Assembly (NCBI GenBank): GCA_030608825.1
Contig: JAUWDL010000061.1
Span: 1 to 7,087, forward strand
DNA: 7,087 nucleotides
Source: Gemmatimonadales bacterium
GTDB lineage: Bacteria; Gemmatimonadota; Gemmatimonadetes; Palauibacterales; Palauibacteraceae
Direction of reading: 5' to 3'
The notes under the pieces are model-generated. The model did not search any database, was not told the DNA's origin, and worked only from the letters and a program-made list of their open reading frames with translations. The position numbers and the translations under genes were made by a program. Shown here one piece after another: positions 1-7,087 of the stretch (positions are counted from its first letter, which is position 1; every line of letters begins with the position of its first letter).

Positions 1-189
1 GACGAGTTCCGCTGCATCTTCTGTGGCTTTTGTCAGGAGGTCTGCCCCGTGGAGGCGATCCACCTCGGCGTACACTACGAGAACGCCGAATACAGCCGGG
101 AGCGGTGGGTGTACGATCTTGAGCAGTTGAGCGAGCTCGACCACCCGTACACCGCCCTGTGGGACCCTGCGGACCCCAGGTCCGAATGA
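1..189 (+). CDS. nuoI: NADH-quinone oxidoreductase subunit I (NuoI), C-terminal fragment
   Basis: The first 63 codons, read in frame 1 and ending at TGA 187-189, form the C-terminal 62 residues of a protein whose start lies left of the window. Fragment residues 5-16 give the 4Fe-4S ferredoxin motif C-x2-C-x2-C-x3-CP (Cys 5, 8, 11, 15), followed by VEAIHLGVHYENAEYSRER. This matches the second cluster-binding motif and tail of NuoI, the subunit that carries clusters N6a and N6b in the peripheral arm of proton-pumping complex I. The acidic, proline-rich tail (DHPYTALWDPADP) is plausible for a C-terminus. nuoI is usually followed by nuoJ on the same strand, but here a convergent gene follows after 18 bp, so the nuo cluster ends or is split here. 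A 2x[4Fe-4S] subunit of a related oxidoreductase cannot be excluded because the N-terminal half is missing. Confidence 0.82.
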   Translation, partial: DEFRCIFCGFCQEVCPVEAIHLGVHYENAEYSRERWVYDLEQLSELDHPYTALWDPADPRSE

Positions 190-207: not shown

Positions 208-789
208 TCAGTTGGCTGGTTCGAAGTTGACGCAGAGTTCGTCGGTCTCAGCGACATCGAGTGGTTGCTCGAAAAGGTTACACCAGCACTCGGCGGAGTC
301 ACCCGTACAGCGCCCGTCGCAGTCGAAGTGGAGGCAGGCGGGACACGTGCCGAACGAGCGGCCTCCACGGACCTGGCTAAGCCGAGCCACCAGCTCTTTC
401 AGTGTACGAACGAATCGAGCCCGAACTGCGGGCTGCAGGGAGCGAAACGCGGCGACGAGATCGCTCAGCGGATCATCCTCTAACGTGTCTCTCCCCTTCT
501 TCGCCAAGTCGAGTCGGATGCTGCGGCCGTCAACTGCGGAAGGGTTCTTCTGTACGAATCCGCGGTCAACCAGACGCTGAACCGTCTGGGAGGCTGTGCC
601 GCGCGTCGTCGCGTGAAACTCGGCGAACGCCGATACGGTCCGCGAGAACCGGTTGGCGCGCGAAAGGTAGCGCAGCGCGGCCCATTGAGCGGGCGTGAGG
701 CCGCGCGGGTAGCCTGCTCCCGCCACCGCGTACCCGAGCTGCGCTAGCAGTTCGGCCCCTTCTTCCTCGCTTCTCGAGTCGGCTTCCAT
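208..789 (-). CDS. MarR-type winged-helix regulator with cysteine-rich C-terminal tail; candidate regulator of the divergent suf operon
   Basis: This is a 193-residue protein with ATG at 789-787 and TGA at 210-208. Residues 31-103 look like a MarR winged helix: LTPAQWAALRYL (31-42), a recognition-helix region TTRGTASQTVQRLVDRGFVQ (61-80) and a wing D87-GRSIRLDLAKKGRD carrying the family's D-x-R-x3-L-x-L-x3-G pattern. Residues 104-141 are probably the C-terminal dimerisation helix. The tail has seven cysteines (149, 152, 157, 161, 168, 170, 186) in the spacing C-x2-C-x4-C-x3-C-x6-C-x-C-x15-C, and there are none earlier in the protein. Such clustering suggests an Fe-S cluster or zinc site. MarR proteins are ligand- or redox-responsive dimeric DNA-binding proteins. 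This gene is divergent from sufB, with a dyad between them, so I infer it controls suf and possibly itself. That role is inferred: SufR and IscR, the known suf regulators, belong to other HTH families. No clear Shine-Dalgarno precedes the ATG, so the leader may be short. Confidence 0.85.
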   Translation of the reverse strand: MEADSRSEEEGAELLAQLGYAVAGAGYPRGLTPAQWAALRYLSRANRFSRTVSAFAEFHATTRGTASQTVQRLVDRGFVQKNPSAVDGRSIRLDLAKKGRDTLEDDPLSDLVAAFRSLQPAVRARFVRTLKELVARLSQVRGGRSFGTCPACLHFDCDGRCTGDSAECWCNLFEQPLDVAETDELCVNFEPAN

Positions 790-803
790 ACAGATAAACG
801 GTA

Positions 804-809
804 GCTATA
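804..809 (-). promoter_or_regulatory. Possible extended -10 element for the MarR-type gene
   Basis: On the minus strand this reads TATAGC and is preceded by TGG, giving the extended -10 arrangement TG-n-TATAnn. It lies 14 bp upstream of the ATG at 789, which would give a very short leader and agrees with the absence of a ribosome binding site. No convincing -35 is spaced correctly, as expected for extended -10 promoters. This is motif evidence only. Confidence 0.3.
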
Positions 810-810
810 C

Positions 811-822
811 CAACCTATGTTG
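811..822. promoter_or_regulatory. Short dyad CAAC-n4-GTTG, possible secondary operator
   Basis: CAACCTATGTTG has perfect 4 bp arms and lies just upstream of the putative minus-strand -10 at 804-809. Its CAAC/GTTG half sites share sequence with the right arm (CAACTATA) of the larger dyad at 840-862. It could be a weaker autoregulatory site for the same regulator, but dyads this short arise easily by chance. Confidence 0.25.
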
Positions 823-864
823 ACAAGCTAGATTAACCATATAGTTTTGTAACGCAACTATACT
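820..864 (+). promoter_or_regulatory. Candidate promoter region of the suf operon
   Basis: The divergent spacer is AT-rich compared with the flanking genes. On the + strand it holds a consensus -35 hexamer TTGACA (820-825) and a good -10 hexamer TATACT (859-864). These two are too far apart (33 bp) to be partners. TTGACA could pair with TATAGT at 840-845 only with a short 14 bp spacer, and TATACT has no good -35 at 16-18 bp. The TATACT box is the likelier -10 because it puts transcription start about 55-60 nt before the sufB start, and it could depend on an activator. Which hexamers are used cannot be settled from sequence alone. Confidence 0.4.
840..862. promoter_or_regulatory. Inverted-repeat operator candidate (TATAGTT-n9-AACTATA)
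   Basis: The 23 bp element has perfect 7 bp arms, TATAGTT (840-846) and AACTATA (856-862). Inside the spacer, G849-C853 and T850-A852 are also symmetric about A851, so 9 of 11 position pairs match. The size, the AT-rich outer arms and the GTT/AAC core resemble operators bound by MarR-family dimers. The right arm overlaps the -10-like TATACT (859-864), so a bound protein would block RNA polymerase at sufB. The obvious candidate binder is the adjacent MarR-type protein; that link is inferred. Confidence 0.6.
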
Positions 865-927: not shown

Positions 928-2337
928 TTGCCGCGCAACGAGACCATCGCAGAGCTCGGGCTCGACGAATACGGATACGACTTCGTCACGGAGGACAAGC
1001 CGGTCTTCAAGTCCCGTAAGGGCTTGGACGAAGAGATCGTGCGCCAGATCTCGGCGCACAAGGAGGAGCCGGCGTGGATGCTCCAGTTCCGGCTCAAGGC
1101 TCTGGAGATCTTCGAGTCGAAGCCGATGCCGGACTGGGGCGGTGATCTGGATCGGCTCAATCTGGACGAGATCTACTTCTACGTCCGTCCCCAGGACCGC
1201 ATGGAGCACTCCTGGGACGATGTGCCCGATGAGATCAAGGAGACGTTCGAGAAGCTCGGGATCCCCGAGGCGGAGCGTAAGGTCCTGGCGGGCGTGGGCG
1301 CCCAATACGAGTCGGAGATGGTCTACCACTCGCTCAAGGAGGAGTGGGAGCAGCAGGGCGTGATCTTCGAGTCGATCGAGGACGGGCTCAAGAAGTACCC
1401 CGACCTGTTCAGGGAGTACTTCTCGACGGTCGTGCCGACGGCGGACAACAAGTTCGCGGCGCTGAACTCGGCGGTCTGGTCGGGCGGCTCGTTCGTGTAC
1501 ATCCCGAAGGGCGTGAAGGTGGAGATCCCGCTTCAGGCCTACTTCCGCGTCAACTCCGAGCAGATGGGGCAGTTCGAGCGTACGCTGATCATCGCCGACG
1601 AGGGATCCGAGGCCCACTACATCGAGGGGTGCACGGCGCCGGTCTACACGACCGACTCCTTTCACTCGGGCGTGATCGAGATCATCGTCAAGCCGAACGC
1701 CAGGTTCCGGTACACGACGATCCAGAACTGGTCGAACAACATGTACAACCTCGTCACGCAGCGAGCGATCGTCGAGGAGGGGGCGTACATGGAGTGGCTG
1801 GACGGGAACCTGGGCTCGAAGCTGACGATGAAGTACCCGTCCTGCTTCCTGGTCGGCGAGGGAGCGCACGGGCAGATCCTGTCGATCGCGTACGCGAGCG
1901 ACGGCCAGCACCAGGACACGGGCGGCAAGGTGGTGCACGTCGCGCCCCACACGACCTCGCAGATCACGTCGAAGTCGATCTCCAAGGGTACGGGGCGGGC
2001 GACGTACCGGGGTCTGCTCAAGGTGTACGAGGGCGCGACCAACGCGAAGTCGAACGTCGAGTGCGACGCGCTCCTGCTGAGCGAGACGTCGCGGACGGAC
2101 ACGTACCCGTACATCGAGATCGACGAGGAGTCGGCGTCGATCGGCCACGAGGCGACCGTGTCGAAGGTGGGCGACGAGCAGCTCTTCTATCTCACCAGCC
2201 GCGGCCTCTCCCAGGAGGAGGCCATGGCCATGGTCGTGCGCGGCTTCATCGAGCCGATCGCCAAGCAGCTCCCGCTCGAGTACGCCATCGAGCTCAACCG
2301 GCTGGTCGAACTCGAAATGGAAGGAAGCGTCGGGTAG
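928..2337 (+). CDS. sufB: Fe-S cluster assembly scaffold SufB
   Basis: This is a 469-residue protein, normal for the family, starting at TTG 928 and ending at TAG 2335-2337. SufB is the core scaffold of the cytosolic SUF complex; with SufC and SufD it builds a nascent cluster from SufU-delivered sulfur. Strong signatures are [23 protein letters not shown] (174-196), [28 protein letters not shown] (230-238), the beta-helix core from about 215 to 370, and the C-terminal [22 protein letters not shown]. Cys379 in NVEC aligns with E. coli Cys405, Cys235 with Cys254, and His407-Glu408 with His433-Glu434, residues implicated in cluster assembly. Only three cysteines are present (235, 306, 379). The N-terminal CxxC found in some SufBs is absent, as in actinobacterial forms. 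It is the first gene of the rightward operon, 138 bp from the divergent regulator. The usual partner sufC is neither just before nor just after it. Confidence 0.97.
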
Positions 2338-2355
2338 GCCGACCCCTACCCGACG
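2328..2355 (+). other. Strong stem-loop spanning the sufB stop codon (11 bp perfect stem)
   Basis: The left arm CGTCGGGTAGG (2328-2338) and right arm CCTACCCGACG (2345-2355) are perfectly complementary around a 6 nt loop CCGACC. The sufB TAG stop (2335-2337) lies in the left arm. No T-run follows, since the next bases are purine-rich, so this is not a classical intrinsic terminator. Possible roles are partial attenuation, an RNase barrier protecting sufB mRNA, or a processing site that sets SufB:SufD ratios. The 65 bp gap holding it is the largest in the operon. Confidence 0.65.
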
Positions 2356-2387
2356 GAGGACCGAGGGAGTTGAGAGGATACGTGGGG

Positions 2388-2394
2388 AACGGAG
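2388..2394 (+). promoter_or_regulatory. Ribosome binding site favouring GTG 2403 as the sufD start
   Basis: AACGGAG ends 8 nt before GTG 2403. Competing in-frame starts are TTG 2370, GTG 2382 (preceded by GAGAGGA with only 3 nt spacing) and GTG 2394. The 2403 start has the best spacing and begins close to the conserved part of the protein. Confidence 0.5.
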
Positions 2395-2402
2395 TGACAA
2401 GC

Positions 2403-3800
2403 GTGAAGATAGATGCGACCGCGGGCGGAGCCGTGAGGCTGGCTGACCCGGAACGCGCTCTTGCCGCCATCAGCGGGCTGAACGAGCCGGAGACGCTCAG
2501 GCAAGCCCGGCGGCTGGCGTGGGAGCGCTTCCGGGAACTTCCCATGCCGACCCGAAAGTCGGAGGAGTGGCGGTACACCGATATCTCGAGCCTCCGTCTC
2601 GAGGACTACGAGCCCGCCATTCCAGGCCTCAACGGTGATCGACCCGGGGGCCCGGAGCCGGGTGCGCTGGACCAGCTGGAAGCCGTTCCCGAGCCGGTGC
2701 GTGAGGTTCTGGCCCGCTCACGGGAACGAAGCGGCGTTTGGGTTCAGGTGGACGGCGTCACCGTCTACCACAGGCTCGACGACGATCTGGCCGAGCGCGG
2801 GGTCGTCTTCGCGTCGATCTCGACAGTGGCCCGCGAGCGGCCTGATCTGATGGAGAAGTACCTGTTCACGAGCCCGATACCGGAGATGGAGGAGAAGCTC
2901 TGGGCGGCTCACGTGGCACTGCTCTCAGAGGGCTTCGTGCTTCACGTGCCTCGTGGCGTGCGCCTTCCGGCGCCGGTTCACACCTTCCGCTGTATCACCA
3001 AACCCGGAACCCTCGTCTCAACGCACTCCCTGGTGGCGGTGGAAGAGGGCGGCGAGGCCACCTGTATCGACGAGTTCATGTCGCCCGACCTGCCGGAGCC
3101 TTCCATCAACCTGGCCGGCGCGGAGCTTTTCGGTGGTCCTGAGGCGACGCTCCACTACATCGCGCTGCAGCGCTTCGGAACGGGCGTGAAGCACTTCGGG
3201 CTTCAACACGTCACCTCTCAGCGGGACAGCCGGCTGGTCGGCGTCAACATCAGCCTCGGGGGCAATCTCTCGCGGGTGGACGTGACCAGCCACCTGGATG
3301 GACCCGGCAGCGAGAGCGAGATGCTGGCCCTGTGGTTCGGGGATGGCACGCAGCACTTCGACCACCACACCCTGCAGCACCACGCCGCGCCGAGCGCGCA
3401 CAGCAACCTCCTGTACAAGGGCGCCCTGACTGATTCGGCCCAGAGTGTCTTTCGCGGTCTCATTCGGGTGGAGCCGGAGGGTCAGCTGACGGACGCGTAC
3501 CAGACCAACCGCAACCTCATCCTGAGCGAGGAGGCCGGCGCCCGCGCGCTTCCGAACCTCGAGATCGAGGCGGATGATGTCCGGTGCTCTCACGGAGCGA
3601 CGGTGGGCCAGGTGGACTCGAGGCAGCTCTTCTACCTCATGAGCCGGGGGCTGAGCCGCCGGCAGGCCGAGAGGCTTCTGGTCTTCGGGTTCTTCGACGA
3701 GGTCCTGGGACGCATCCCCGTCGAGGGCGTGCGCGACCGGATCCGCGAGGCGATCGAAGCGAAGATCGGCCTTGGCACGTCGCCGCTGACGAGCGCCTGA
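2403..3800 (+). CDS. sufD: Fe-S cluster assembly protein SufD
   Basis: This is a 465-residue protein from GTG 2403 to TGA 3798-3800, slightly long for SufD. The frame stays open far upstream inside sufB, but that part is a shadow reading. SufD is a SufB paralogue that completes the SufBCD scaffold and is linked to iron acquisition. The N-terminal region has the typical ETLRQARRLAWERFRELPMPTRKSEEWRYTD. The beta-helix middle includes HVPRGVRLPAP and SHLDGPGSESEMLALWFGDGTQHFDHHTLQHHAAPSAHSNLLYKGAL. The C-terminal block ADDVRCSHGATVGQVDSRQLFYLMSRGLSRRQAERLLVFGFFDEVL carries Cys395-x-His397, equivalent to E. coli Cys358 and His360, which are needed for in vivo cluster formation. It follows sufB after a 65 bp spacer with a hairpin and is 3 bp from the Rieske gene. 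It looks intact. Confidence 0.96.
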   Translation: MKIDATAGGAVRLADPERALAAISGLNEPETLRQARRLAWERFRELPMPTRKSEEWRYTDISSLRLEDYEPAIPGLNGDRPGGPEPGALDQLEAVPEPVREVLARSRERSGVWVQVDGVTVYHRLDDDLAERGVVFASISTVARERPDLMEKYLFTSPIPEMEEKLWAAHVALLSEGFVLHVPRGVRLPAPVHTFRCITKPGTLVSTHSLVAVEEGGEATCIDEFMSPDLPEPSINLAGAELFGGPEATLHYIALQRFGTGVKHFGLQHVTSQRDSRLVGVNISLGGNLSRVDVTSHLDGPGSESEMLALWFGDGTQHFDHHTLQHHAAPSAHSNLLYKGALTDSAQSVFRGLIRVEPEGQLTDAYQTNRNLILSEEAGARALPNLEIEADDVRCSHGATVGQVDSRQLFYLMSRGLSRRQAERLLVFGFFDEVLGRIPVEGVRDRIREAIEAKIGLGTSPLTSA

Positions 3801-3803
3801 CCC

Positions 3804-4112
3804 GTGAGCGACTTCACGACGGTGGCCAGTCTGGCGGACGTCCCGGAGAGCGGCTTGAAGGCGGTGCAGGTGGATGGGGCCAACCTGGTCCTCGTGAGAC
3901 GCGACGGACGGGTCTACGCGCTCGAGGACCGCTGCTCCCACGAGGAGTTCCCGCTATCGGCGGGAGAGGTGACCGGCGACCAGATCACCTGCGCTCTACA
4001 CGGAGCACGCTTCGACCTCGCCTCGGGTACGCCGAAGGCGTTGCCCGCCGTCCTGCCGGTGCGCACTTTCGAGTGCCGCGTCGAGGGCGACGAGGTCCAG
4101 GTCAGACTCTGA
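3804..4112 (+). CDS. Rieske [2Fe-2S] ferredoxin-like protein of the suf operon
   Basis: This is a 102-residue soluble protein with GTG at 3804 and TGA at 4110-4112. The whole length is one Rieske domain. Cys44-x-His46 and Cys63-x2-His66, separated by 16 residues, form the two-Cys/two-His [2Fe-2S] site (CSHEEFPLSAGEV and ITCALHGARFDLASG). There is no signal peptide or membrane anchor, which resembles ferredoxins of aromatic-ring dioxygenases or the NirD small subunit rather than the bc1 Rieske protein. No oxygenase subunit is nearby. The gene lies 3 bp after sufD and 20 bp before sufS, has only a weak GACGAG-like ribosome binding site, and is probably translated by coupling. Rieske genes occur within actinobacterial suf operons; their exact role is not established, and electron supply for assembly or a client role are possibilities. 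Confidence 0.93.
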   Translation: MSDFTTVASLADVPESGLKAVQVDGANLVLVRRDGRVYALEDRCSHEEFPLSAGEVTGDQITCALHGARFDLASGTPKALPAVLPVRTFECRVEGDEVQVRL

Positions 4113-4132
4113 TCGCGATCGGCGCCGGCTCC

Positions 4133-5383
4133 ATGGAGACCGCAGTGGTCGCACCCCCGTACGATATCGAAGCCGTCCGCCGGGACTTTCCCATCCTGGA
4201 GCAGAAGGTCAACGGGCAGCCGCTCGTTTACCTGGACAGCGCGGCCAGCTCGCAGCGACCGCGCGCCGTTATCGACGCGATTCGCCGACATTACGAGACC
4301 TCGCACGCCAACGTGCACCGCGGTGCTCACGAGCTCAGCGTGCGCGCGACCGAGGCGTACGAGGACGCCCGCACCTGCGTCGCCGCCCACATCGGTGCGG
4401 AGGATACCGCCGAGATCGTGTTCGTAAGAGGAACGACGGAGGCGATCAACCTCGTGGCGGGCAGCTTGGGCAAGGCCCGCATCGGCTCGGGCGACGAGAT
4501 CCTGCTCACCAAGATGGAACACCACTCCAACATCGTCCCCTGGCAGCTCCTGGCGGAGCGCACCGGGGCCACGCTGCGTTTCGTGGACGTCTCCCCCGAG
4601 GGACGGCTCGTGCTGGACGACTACGGCCGGATGCTCTCCGAGCGGACGCGTCTGGTCGGTGTCACTCACGTCTCCAACAGCCTCGGCGTCATCAATCCCG
4701 TGCGGGAGATCGCCGCGCTCGCTCACGAGGCCGGTGCCCTATGCCTCGTGGACGGCGCTCAGGCGGCCCCGCACCTCGCCCTCGACATGGGGGCGCTCGG
4801 ATGCGATTTCTACGCGTTCAGCGGCCACAAGATGTGCGGGCCGACCGGGATCGGGGTGCTCTGGGCACGGCGCGCGATTCTGGAGGAGATGCCGCCCTAC
4901 CAGGGCGGCGGCGAGATGATCGCCTCCGTCACGCTCGACGGCTCCACCTGGGCTGAGGTGCCTCACAAGTTCGAGGCGGGAACGCCGAACATCGCCGGCG
5001 CCGTCGGCCTCGGCGCGGCGATCCGTTATCTGGACGGCATCGGTCTGGATGCCATCCGACGGTACGAGACGGAGCTCACGGGGTATGCTCTCGAACGACT
5101 CGGCGAAATCGAAGGGCTTCGGATCTACGGACCAACCGACGGGCGCGTGGGTGTTCTCTCTTTCACGTATCTGGACGTCCACGCTCATGACCTGGCGACG
5201 ATCCTCGATCAGCGAGGTATCGCGATCCGGGCCGGTCATCACTGCAATCAACCGCTCATGGAGCACCTCGGAATCGATGCGACCGCTCGTGCCAGCCTCT
5301 ACCTGTACAACACGCCCCAGGAGGTCGACGCCCTCTGCGAGGCTCTCCACCTGGCCGGCGAGCTCTTCTGTCGCAGAGTCTGA
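4133..5383 (+). CDS. sufS: Cysteine desulfurase SufS (group II, PLP-dependent)
   Basis: This is a 416-residue protein from ATG 4133 to TGA 5381-5383, normal for SufS. It converts L-cysteine to alanine and a protein-bound persulfide. Key residues visible are His130 in MEHHSNIVPW (stacks on PLP), Asp207 and Gln210 in LVDGAQAAPH, the PLP Schiff-base Lys233 in FSGHKMCGPTGIGVLW, and the catalytic Cys371 in RAGHHCNQPLM. His352, in AHDLATILDQRGI, lies 19 residues before Cys371. The same spacing separates B. subtilis His342 and Cys361, and that histidine joins the zinc swap with SufU, in agreement with the sufU gene 27 bp downstream. The open frame extends left to about 3584, but that part is a shadow of sufD and the Rieske gene. 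GTG 4145, four codons in, has a better ribosome binding site (GGAG, 6 nt spacing) and could be the true start. Confidence 0.97.
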   Translation: METAVVAPPYDIEAVRRDFPILEQKVNGQPLVYLDSAASSQRPRAVIDAIRRHYETSHANVHRGAHELSVRATEAYEDARTCVAAHIGAEDTAEIVFVRGTTEAINLVAGSLGKARIGSGDEILLTKMEHHSNIVPWQLLAERTGATLRFVDVSPEGRLVLDDYGRMLSERTRLVGVTHVSNSLGVINPVREIAALAHEAGALCLVDGAQAAPHLALDMGALGCDFYAFSGHKMCGPTGIGVLWARRAILEEMPPYQGGGEMIASVTLDGSTWAEVPHKFEAGTPNIAGAVGLGAAIRYLDGIGLDAIRRYETELTGYALERLGEIEGLRIYGPTDGRVGVLSFTYLDVHAHDLATILDQRGIAIRAGHHCNQPLMEHLGIDATARASLYLYNTPQEVDALCEALHLAGELFCRRV

Positions 5384-5410
5384 GCGCACGCCCCCCCGTA
5401 CGGCACACTC

Positions 5411-5935
5411 ATGAGCGAACACGCTGACACCCCGGGTGGCACGTCGATCGACCGAAGGATCCCGAGCGCCCTCGCCGATCTCTTTCAAGAGGTCATCCTC
5501 GACCACTACAGACGTCCCAGGAACAAGGGGTCGCTCGAGGCGCCCACCCACACCGTCACGATGAACAACCCGCTGTGCGGCGACGTCATCGAGCTGTCAA
5601 TCTCCGTCCGAGGCGACCGGATCGACGAGGTGCGCTACGAGGGCAGAGGTTGCTCGATCAGCCAGGCCGCCGTCTCCATGATGACCGAGCGGCTCAAGGG
5701 AGCGAGGCTCGGCGAGGCTCGGGCCCTGTCGGCGAAGTTCACCCGTCTGCTCCACGGCGAGGAGGCGCTTCAACGGGACGAGAAGCTGGGCGATCTGCGG
5801 GCCCTGGCGGGCGTCTCGAAGTTCCCGGTACGGATCAAGTGCGCCCTTCTGGGCTTCAACTGCCTCGATGAGCTGATCGGAGAGCCCGCAGCCGGGAAGC
5901 GCGAGCCCGAAACCGGGCCGGGAGAGCAGCGGTAG
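5411..5935 (+). CDS. sufU: SufU zinc-dependent sulfurtransferase / Fe-S assembly protein
   Basis: This is a 174-residue protein from ATG 5411 to TAG 5933-5935. SufU accepts persulfide sulfur from SufS and passes it to SufB. The IscU-like fold is seen from LADLFQEVILDHYRRPRNKG (21-40) on. Expected zinc ligands are Cys56 and Asp58 (NPLCGD), Cys81 (GRGCSISQAAVSMM) and Cys144 (RIKCALLGF). The roughly 19-residue insertion between the second and third cysteine blocks that separates SufU from IscU is present (about 95-135). The 'CALLG' form of the last motif is the actinobacterial style, whereas Firmicutes have CATLAW. An extra Cys151 follows. The N-terminus carries about 20 extra residues and the C-terminal 20 residues are a charged, probably disordered tail. 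No Shine-Dalgarno precedes the ATG, and no other start codon exists before the conserved region. Translation may be coupled to sufS, 27 bp upstream. Confidence 0.95.
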   Translation: MSEHADTPGGTSIDRRIPSALADLFQEVILDHYRRPRNKGSLEAPTHTVTMNNPLCGDVIELSISVRGDRIDEVRYEGRGCSISQAAVSMMTERLKGARLGEARALSAKFTRLLHGEEALQRDEKLGDLRALAGVSKFPVRIKCALLGFNCLDELIGEPAAGKREPETGPGEQR

Positions 5936-5943
5936 CCGTCTCC

Positions 5944-5947
5944 GGAG
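5944..5947 (+). promoter_or_regulatory. Ribosome binding site for rsgA
   Basis: GGAG ends 7 nt before GTG 5955 and supports that start. It lies in the 19 bp gap after the sufU stop. Confidence 0.5.
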
Positions 5948-5954
5948 CCCTCGG

Positions 5955-6860
5955 GTGAGCGCGCGGACCGAGGGGCGCGTGCTCAGGAGCGCTGGCGGGG
6001 TGTATTCGGTGGATTGCGGCGATCGAATCCTCGACTGCGCGCTTCGCGGACGGTTGAAGCTGGGCGAGGAAAAGATCAACCCGGGAGACCGAGTGCTCCT
6101 GGAGCACCTCTCCGACGGGAGCTGCCGAATCGAGGCCCTCCTGCCCCGCAACACCAAGCTCTCACGGCGCGCCGTCGCGGGCAGCCGGGAGCAGGTGATC
6201 GTGGCGAACGTGGATCAGCTGGCCGCGGTCTTTGCGGTGGGGGAGCCCGCGCCCGACTTCAGGCTTCTGGATCGGTTTCTGGTGCTGGCGGAGCTGAACG
6301 ATCTCTCGGCCTTCATCGTCCTCAACAAGACCGACCTCCCAAGCGACGCTGGAACGATGGGCGCCTTCGACATCTACCGCGAGGCCGGCTACGACATCCT
6401 CCCGACGAGCGCCGAACGAGGCGACGGCGTCTCCGATCTCAGGCGCCGGCTCGGAGGTCACGCGACCGTCTTCGCCGGGCCTTCCGGCGTCGGCAAGTCC
6501 AGTCTCCTCAACCTCCTGCTTCCCGAGCATGAGCTGAAGGTCCGAGAGGTGAGCAGGAAGCGGGGCCGGGGAAGGCATACGACCGTCGGATCCACCTTCT
6601 ACCGGCTTCCGGACGGGGGATACGTCGCCGACACCCCGGGGCTGCAACTGCTGGTGCTCTGGGATCTGTCGCCGGACGAGCTCGCGGGTGCGTTTCCCGA
6701 GTTCAGCACGGCGATCGGCGGCTGCCGCTTCAACAACTGCCGGCACGTGAGCGAGCCGGATTGCGCCGTGCGGCGCCTCATCGAGGCCGGAGCGGCGAGC
6801 GAGGCGCGTTACGGCAGCTACCGAGCCCTGCTGGATGAGGCCAGGCAGGAAGGTTCGTGA
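5955..6860 (+). CDS. rsgA: Ribosome small-subunit-dependent GTPase RsgA
   Basis: This is a 301-residue protein from GTG 5955 to TGA 6858-6860. RsgA (YjeQ/YloQ) is a late 30S ribosome assembly factor whose GTP hydrolysis is triggered by the 30S subunit. Residues 1-70 form the N-terminal OB-fold (GRVLRSAGGVYSVD, LKLGEEKINPGDRVLLE). The GTPase is circularly permuted, with motifs in the order G4 NKTD (124-127), G5 TSA (151-153), G1 GPSGVGKS (175-182), G2 at T209/T210 (GRHTT) and G3 DTPG (226-229). The C-terminal zinc module has Cys257, Cys262, His264 and Cys270 (CRFNNCRHVSEPDC). All motifs are intact and the length is standard. It lies 19 bp after sufU and overlaps the next gene by 4 bp, so it is probably co-transcribed. 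A functional link to Fe-S assembly is not implied by the family. Confidence 0.96.
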   Translation: MSARTEGRVLRSAGGVYSVDCGDRILDCALRGRLKLGEEKINPGDRVLLEHLSDGSCRIEALLPRNTKLSRRAVAGSREQVIVANVDQLAAVFAVGEPAPDFRLLDRFLVLAELNDLSAFIVLNKTDLPSDAGTMGAFDIYREAGYDILPTSAERGDGVSDLRRRLGGHATVFAGPSGVGKSSLLNLLLPEHELKVREVSRKRGRGRHTTVGSTFYRLPDGGYVADTPGLQLLVLWDLSPDELAGAFPEFSTAIGGCRFNNCRHVSEPDCAVRRLIEAGAASEARYGSYRALLDEARQEGS

Positions 6861-7087
6861 GCGGGCGGAACGACTTCCCAGGATTTCTCCGGGACCGCTT
6901 CTCCGGATACGAGGCGCGACGCGCGGACCCACCGGAGGGCACAGCGCGAGCCGCCGTGGTGCTCGTGCTCAGGGCCGGCGAGATCGAGCCGGAAGCCCTC
7001 TTCGTCGTGCGGGCCACCCATGAGCGCGACCCATGGTCCGGGCACGTGGCACTCCCCGGCGGACGTGAAGAGCAGGTGGACCGTGAC
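6857..7087 (+). CDS. NUDIX hydrolase, CoA-pyrophosphatase-like, N-terminal fragment
   Basis: The frame starts at GTG 6857, overlapping the rsgA stop (GTGA), and stays open for 77 codons to the right edge, so the gene is cut. AGGAAGG at 6847-6853 could serve as ribosome binding site. Residues about 32-52 form the first beta strands (AAVVLVLRAGEIEPEALFVVRA). These are followed by THERDPWSGHVALPGGREEQVD, which matches the lead-in of CoA diphosphatase/NudL-type NUDIX proteins (R-x-DPWSGH-x-FPGG) and the first glycines of the NUDIX box. The catalytic REUXEE portion lies beyond the window. Such enzymes cleave nucleoside diphosphate-linked substrates, often CoA or its derivatives. The substrate cannot be fixed from this fragment. 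Confidence 0.85.
   Translation, partial: MSGRNDFPGFLRDRFSGYEARRADPPEGTARAAVVLVLRAGEIEPEALFVVRATHERDPWSGHVALPGGREEQVDRD

Follow-up and report, generated by a model that had tools for sequence, protein, structure and literature searches.

The control of Fe-S cluster assembly in bacteria has mostly been told through IscR, RirA, SufR and Fur. IscR and SufR are regulators that hold a cluster themselves and exert feedback on Fe-S assembly. SufR represses suf through a winged helix and carries an Fe-S site on C-terminal cysteines, and IscR and RirA belong to the Rrf2 family, which regulates Fe-S and iron genes. In ArnR, the C-terminal cysteines hold a [4Fe-4S] cluster that is needed for DNA binding. 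ArnR has three conserved cysteines, is found almost only in Actinobacteria and targets narK and hmp, and its winged helix, like that of SufR, is termed reminiscent of MarR/ArsR (PMC12343034).

Here we analysed a 7,087-nucleotide stretch (the window) of a Gemmatimonadales MAG of 82.7% completeness. On its plus strand, sufB, sufD, a Rieske-type ferredoxin gene, sufS, sufU and rsgA follow one another in this order (Table 1). A further plus-strand gene begins after rsgA (6857-7087) and resembles, by eye, one for a Nudix hydrolase. A Rieske-type ferredoxin gene between sufD and sufS was also seen in a genome of the same genus (G003) and, more distantly, in the genome of the Longimicrobiales locus L043. 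A marR gene is divergent from sufB across an intergenic gap of 138 bp (790-927), and the 3' end of a nuoI gene on the plus strand precedes the marR stop codon. The sequence-only reading of this locus had proposed a MarR regulator with a seven-cysteine tail facing sufB, and the ORF bore out its description of the gene. The cysteines are residues 149, 152, 157, 161, 168, 170 and 186, all within the last 45 residues, with the spacing C-x2-C-x4-C-x3-C-x6-C-x-C-x15-C and codons spanning 232-345. The MarR winged helix precedes them, with both domain profiles above their cut-offs (PF12802 50.8 bits, cut-off 27; PF01047 31.9 bits, cut-off 24.6).

Table 1. Coordinates of the features in the window and the grounds for each.
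Feature	Position	Strand	Grounds and remarks
Four-cysteine marR gene, 193 aa	208..789	minus	ATG start (ORF)
sufB, TTG start, predicted target	928..2337	plus	TIGR01980 724.3 bits, cut-off 346.4
sufD	2403..3800	plus	Pfam and NCBIfam profile matches
Rieske-type ferredoxin	3804..4112	plus	Pfam and NCBIfam profile matches
sufS	4133..5383	plus	Pfam and NCBIfam profile matches
sufU	5411..5935	plus	Pfam and NCBIfam profile matches
nuoI 3' end, second copy in the window MAG	1..189	plus	
Winged-helix recognition region, residues 52-75, nearly invariant	565..636	minus	Alignment columns and model helices
Cysteine tail, C149/C152/C170/C186 conserved	232..345	minus	Alignments
Predicted operator, 17/18 specified positions	841..861		Arms TATAGTT/AACTATA at 840-846 and 856-862
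Weak second site, 13/18	798..818		marR promoter side, 43 bp from the 841..861 site

The motif that defines the family is four cysteines, not seven. A protein search gave 1,919 relatives, and the best 120 of these were aligned with the query. In all 121 aligned sequences C149, C152, C170 and C186 were present, whereas C157 (19/121), C161 (61/121) and C168 (29/121) were not conserved. In a second, broader alignment, also of 121 rows, the four cysteines made up four of the 14 invariant columns. A scan of contigs for encoding stretches gave 476 loci. Taking the window, the best 80 of these 476 loci and the best 120 proteins together, the pattern C-x2-C-x(9-20)-C-x15-C occurred in 199 of 201 sequences, with a middle spacer usually of 17 residues; the two misses were L051, which ends at a contig edge, and P0029, which has x13. 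The conservation of cysteine spacing, which the sequence-only reading had put up for checking, holds for the four-cysteine pattern, and the seven-cysteine motif as such was rejected because three of the seven cysteines vary. The recognition helix, with the query letters HATTRGTASQT, was nearly invariant across the family alignments.

For the window protein, AlphaFold2 on the broader 121-row alignment gave a mean pLDDT of 87.7 and placed helices at residues 52-58 and 63-75. The block-mean pLDDT values of the tail were 84, 79, 65, 89, 91 and 78; with 39 rows the tail had been unresolved, and with 121 rows most of it was resolved except residues 160-163 (pLDDT below 50). Structure comparison of the model showed an ordinary MarR fold over residues 1-144, and the fold-search matches listed cover residues 1-150 at most, so that they are uninformative on the tail. 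The tail had no significant match to PDB or Pfam entries, Fe-S and zinc modules included. An alternative to an Fe-S site is a structural or redox-active zinc bound by the four cysteines, which would make the protein a thiol/disulfide oxidant switch, with Fe-S genes induced as oxidants damage clusters. Such four-cysteine sites commonly bind zinc, and the stray Pfam matches of single tails hit zinc ribbons as often as Fe-S modules, but none of these matches was significant.

The subfamily is found in two phyla, Pseudomonadota and Gemmatimonadota. Its spread within the Gemmatimonadota is patchy, with a match at E <= 1e-30 in 6 of 395 sampled genomes, which suggests transfer. In the titles and abstract beginnings of the open-access literature we found no description of a four-cysteine MarR subfamily, which is weak evidence of absence; on the best reading, the subfamily is undescribed so far, and its palindrome, with the regular spacing of neighbouring sites, is new here. 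One Hyphomicrobiales genome carries three four-cysteine marR copies (L017, L030 and L144), each with operator-like sites upstream. L144 had been a candidate for a remote sdhB target and was rejected, since it is one of these marR copies, with an Rrf2-like gene divergent from it.

Genomic neighbours were called with E. coli K-12 proteins, the suf proteins of the window and two proteins from the loci as references. For 45 of the 80 four-cysteine MarR genes, Fe-S assembly or Rrf2 genes lay within 3 kb (38 when Rrf2 is not counted); for 37 other MarR genes, taken from genomes that carry the four-cysteine family, the count was zero. These controls came from 40 stretches, from which L222 (not a MarR match) and L205 and L231 (four-cysteine MarR genes) were left out. 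A first census, with 50/80 against 1/39, was dropped as inflated, since a glutaredoxin/A-type-carrier/rhodanese fusion used as reference caught plain rhodaneses, and L205 and L231 stood among the controls. When the count was widened to Fe-S enzymes and carriers over the whole stretch, it came to 53/80 against 0/37; the references of this extended census were picked from marR-bearing loci or plasmids, so that the test counts lean upward, and the same set served for scanning the controls. The remaining 27 loci had no recognised Fe-S gene, which makes the link strong, not universal; 16 of them carry an RpoH-type sigma gene. Within 600 bp, the nearest divergent Fe-S-linked gene was an A-type carrier at 14, an Rrf2 gene at 13, a CGFS glutaredoxin at 5 and sufB at 2 of the 80 loci. 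The sequence-only reading is partly supported here: the tie of a tailed MarR subfamily to Fe-S genes reaches well past the window, but suf is only one partner beside Rrf2 genes, A-type carriers, CGFS glutaredoxin, ferredoxin and RpoH-type sigma genes. On a tree of 80 rows, suf adjacency takes four changes, at least three of which follow from branches with good support.

RpoH-type sigma genes were found at 21 of the 80 loci (20 on the opposite strand) and at none of the 37 controls. In Paracoccaceae/Roseobacteraceae, many of the partners are of this type, which fits a general stress response, as the zinc switch would have it. The strongest neighbour class is nevertheless Fe-S assembly, the feedback pattern of cluster-holding regulators, and we regard a zinc-based oxidant switch as somewhat unlikely. 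Three further observations concern the neighbourhood. Divergence of RpoH-type sigma genes from marR was seen in many Alphaproteobacteria (L042-L080 in Paracoccaceae/Roseobacteraceae, and others; L274 and L276). A DUF6522 gene (PF20132) occurred at 16/80 loci against 0/37, mostly directly downstream of marR (for example L034, 4392-4778). Proteins that fuse a CGFS glutaredoxin with an A-type-carrier-like and a rhodanese-like part (by eye) are encoded divergent from marR at L025 (6578-7507), and similar triple-domain fusions occur in other gammaproteobacterial loci.

The near-invariance of the recognition helix predicts a shared DNA site. Upstream regions were read by eye for a palindrome (ATAGTWKCGNNNCGMWACTAT), which in degenerate form is the 21-bp ATAGTTTCG-NNN-CGAAACTAT with 18 specified positions. 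A site scoring at least 14/18 lies upstream of 74 of the 81 four-cysteine marR genes, against 0-1 of 81 in each of five shuffles; a score of 13/18 is near noise, since 4-7 of the 81 regions attain it after shuffling. As the pattern came from the same 81 regions on which it was then scored, tests depending less on this choice were added. Neighbouring sites (139 sites, giving 61 spacings) stood 21-22, 33, 44 or 55 bp apart in 46 of the 61 cases: 33 bp 18 times, 21-22 bp 13 times, 44 bp 12 times and 55 bp three times, with the other 15 scattered. These spacings are approximately multiples of 11 bp, so that dimers would sit on one face of the DNA. A promoter of the form TTGTCA-N16..18-TAnnnT was present in 41 of the 81 upstream regions, and in most of the promoter-bearing regions shown the palindrome lies over the promoter spacer and the -10 element.

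In a sample of 142 genomes of Alphaproteobacteria, 16 had a relative at E <= 1e-30, and these relatives included tail-less ones. A site of at least 14 was present at all nine tailed loci retrieved, whereas eight of nine tail-less ones scored at most 12, the exception being L256 with a site of 15. Genome-wide, matches with at most two mismatches in these 142 genomes were at noise level, control matches being at least as frequent; five of the 2-mismatch sites, in four genomes, adjoin a tailed marR. In 30 genomes, searched with at most two mismatches, there were 48 forward matches against 23 for the reversed control, and single weak matches are uninformative for this reason. All five exact sites in these 30 genomes belong to marR (two), erpA (one) and a bolA-grx4-rhodanese-mrp operon (two). 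This operon, in which BolA and Mrp were called by Pfam and the glutaredoxin and rhodanese by eye, lies 14-18 kb from marR in two Marinobacter. Two more erpA promoters (L148 and L156) have sites scoring 16. A site near lipA/sdhB at L150 and most remote 2-mismatch sites were dropped as noise. In the window MAG, the only match with at most three mismatches was 841-861, with one mismatch and within the marR-sufB gap; the reversed pattern likewise gave one match at this threshold. For 26 other sufB genes in related genomes, at loci without a close homologue of the window marR, the upstream regions scored 9-12/18 (two of these regions were short, at 35 and 197 bp).

On this evidence we consider it probable, by a modest measure, that the window MarR holds an Fe-S cluster on its four-cysteine tail and represses sufB, and likely itself, from the 21-bp palindrome. 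What the sequences show is that tail and palindrome are conserved, that the palindrome lies on promoters with helical spacing of its sites, and that the neighbourhood is enriched in Fe-S genes; from this we infer DNA binding and repression, as well as an Fe-S ligand rather than zinc or a thiol switch. When clusters are plentiful, the holo dimer would bind ATAGTTTCG-N3-CGAAACTAT, in many cases with a pair of dimers on the same DNA face, and block the promoters. Iron starvation, oxidants or toxic metals would deplete the clusters and empty the tail, and the dimer would release the DNA, so that suf and, in other genomes, a wider set of Fe-S genes would be expressed. For the subfamily as a whole, the best reading is a repressor of Fe-S genes that responds to Fe-S status or to a metal or redox signal.

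The link to the suf operon of the window needed separate consideration. DNA homology to the same-genus genome G003 extends over 929-7087 at 92% and ends at the sufB start codon. G003 and its same-genus relatives have sufC upstream of sufB, where the window has marR, and the sufB start codon (region 900-935) is ATG in these relatives and TTG in the window. No sufC above the cut-off was found in the window MAG (best 94.3 bits, cut-off 212.8), which means little at its level of completeness. Either a regulator cassette replaced sufC before the housekeeping operon, or a spare sufB on the marR side and that operon were merged in assembly. In the latter case the regulator would be real but its link to the window suf operon an artefact. 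Besides the break at the sufB start codon and the missing sufC, a merger is favoured by L043, where the gene opposite marR is a stand-alone sufB, with fdxA, nuoB, nuoG and nuoI after it, and sufC-sufB-sufD lies elsewhere in the genome, its SufB 90% identical to the stand-alone copy. Yet the 17/18 site sits within the marR-sufB gap itself, and marR stands beside fuller suf operons at L024, L031, L035, L038 and L041. We regard a merger as unlikely. The case for the family is independent of this question.

Spare Fe-S enzymes accompany the gene on plasmids, and second copies of Fe-S genes occur in some marR-bearing genomes. A second full-length sufB was present in four of seven genomes with marR-linked suf and absent in three. 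In the window MAG, a complete nuoI on another contig (G000:C236:23-391) is 95% identical to the partial copy over 59 residues. Plasmid searches gave 153 records each, and the following gene occurrences come from the 20 listed. A four-cysteine marR stands beside aconitase on two Antarctic Polaromonas plasmids, in one of which the stretch adds SufBCDSU, ErpA, IscA, GrxD, BolA, NifU, LipA, FdxA and MoaA. It is accompanied by aconitase, SdhB and a sigma factor on an Octadecabacter plasmid, and on a Bradyrhizobium plasmid it is present twice with rpoH and fdxA, in one of these cases also with a NuoB-like gene. These five plasmid stretches contain ten sites scoring at least 14, seven of which stand upstream of a MarR/rpoH, iscA, aconitase or sigma gene, but for the Polaromonas marR genes the score is only 13. 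The Polaromonas Fe-S modules have already been published, in a paper whose main text is without the term 'MarR' (PMC6015842).

Both Polaromonas plasmids also carry, some kilobases away from marR, a gene for a heavy-metal P-type ATPase. This would fit a tail that directly senses a toxic soft metal (Cu, Hg or Cd), with the Fe-S genes replacing damaged clusters, but such a neighbour was seen in one plasmid group only, and we hold direct metal sensing to be very improbable. Returning to a cluster-holding tail, the plasmids allow a broader and more tentative proposal, which we rate as possible but somewhat doubtful: the four-cysteine MarR may act as master switch for a mobile 'Fe-S reserve kit', in islands on plasmids and chromosomes. 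The kit would contain spare Fe-S enzymes (aconitase, SdhB, NuoB/G/I, LipA, MoaA and FdxA), a spare set for Fe-S assembly and trafficking (SufBCDSU, IscA/ErpA, Grx4, BolA, Nfu and Mrp/ApbC) and, in many cases, an RpoH-type sigma factor. It would stay silent until the tail reports that the clusters of the cell are failing. If this is true, the window would be an example from the Gemmatimonadota, since nuoI stands there as a second copy next to marR and suf. If the plasmid link to duplicated Fe-S enzymes holds, it would mean transferable survival of Fe-S damage with a dedicated sensor.

With a tail motif of its own, a DNA site of its own and its recurrence at Fe-S genes, this family yields a clear testable prediction. 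By the tests made, the window protein is a MarR, not a SufR or Rrf2 member. Its Pfam scan had no match to the Rrf2 domain PF02082, and NCBIfam, which should contain a SufR model, gave no match to one, either for the window protein or for the 121 family members. The Rrf2 family appears instead as a partner: in 13 of the 80 loci, the Fe-S-linked gene closest to marR on the divergent side is an Rrf2 gene. The AdcR/ZitR zinc repressors share the MarR fold and are metal-dependent; their model NF038251 had no match in the window protein and matched 8 of the 121 family members (best 8.4e-5), and we know of no comparable cysteine tail in them. HiPIP-like [4Fe-4S] modules share the CX2CXnCXnC layout with the tail, although only one of 43 tails matched in sequence, at E 0.1. 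This layout is found in HiPIP-like BSS/MASS small subunits, with the MASS beta ligands C32, C35, C51 and C86, and such a motif also binds a single Fe in a rubredoxin-like fold (PMC12358834). The sequence-only reading had placed the known suf/isc regulators in other helix-turn-helix families; this is too strong for SufR, given the likeness of its winged helix to MarR/ArsR noted in the ArnR paper cited above (PMC12343034). ArnR of Corynebacteria has three cysteines, whereas the present family has four, with a fixed x15 spacing and Fe-S gene partners. SufR and the window protein are alike in that the latter, too, is a predicted winged-helix suf repressor with C-terminal cysteines. Among the described systems, the predicted regulator would work most like SufR and ArnR.
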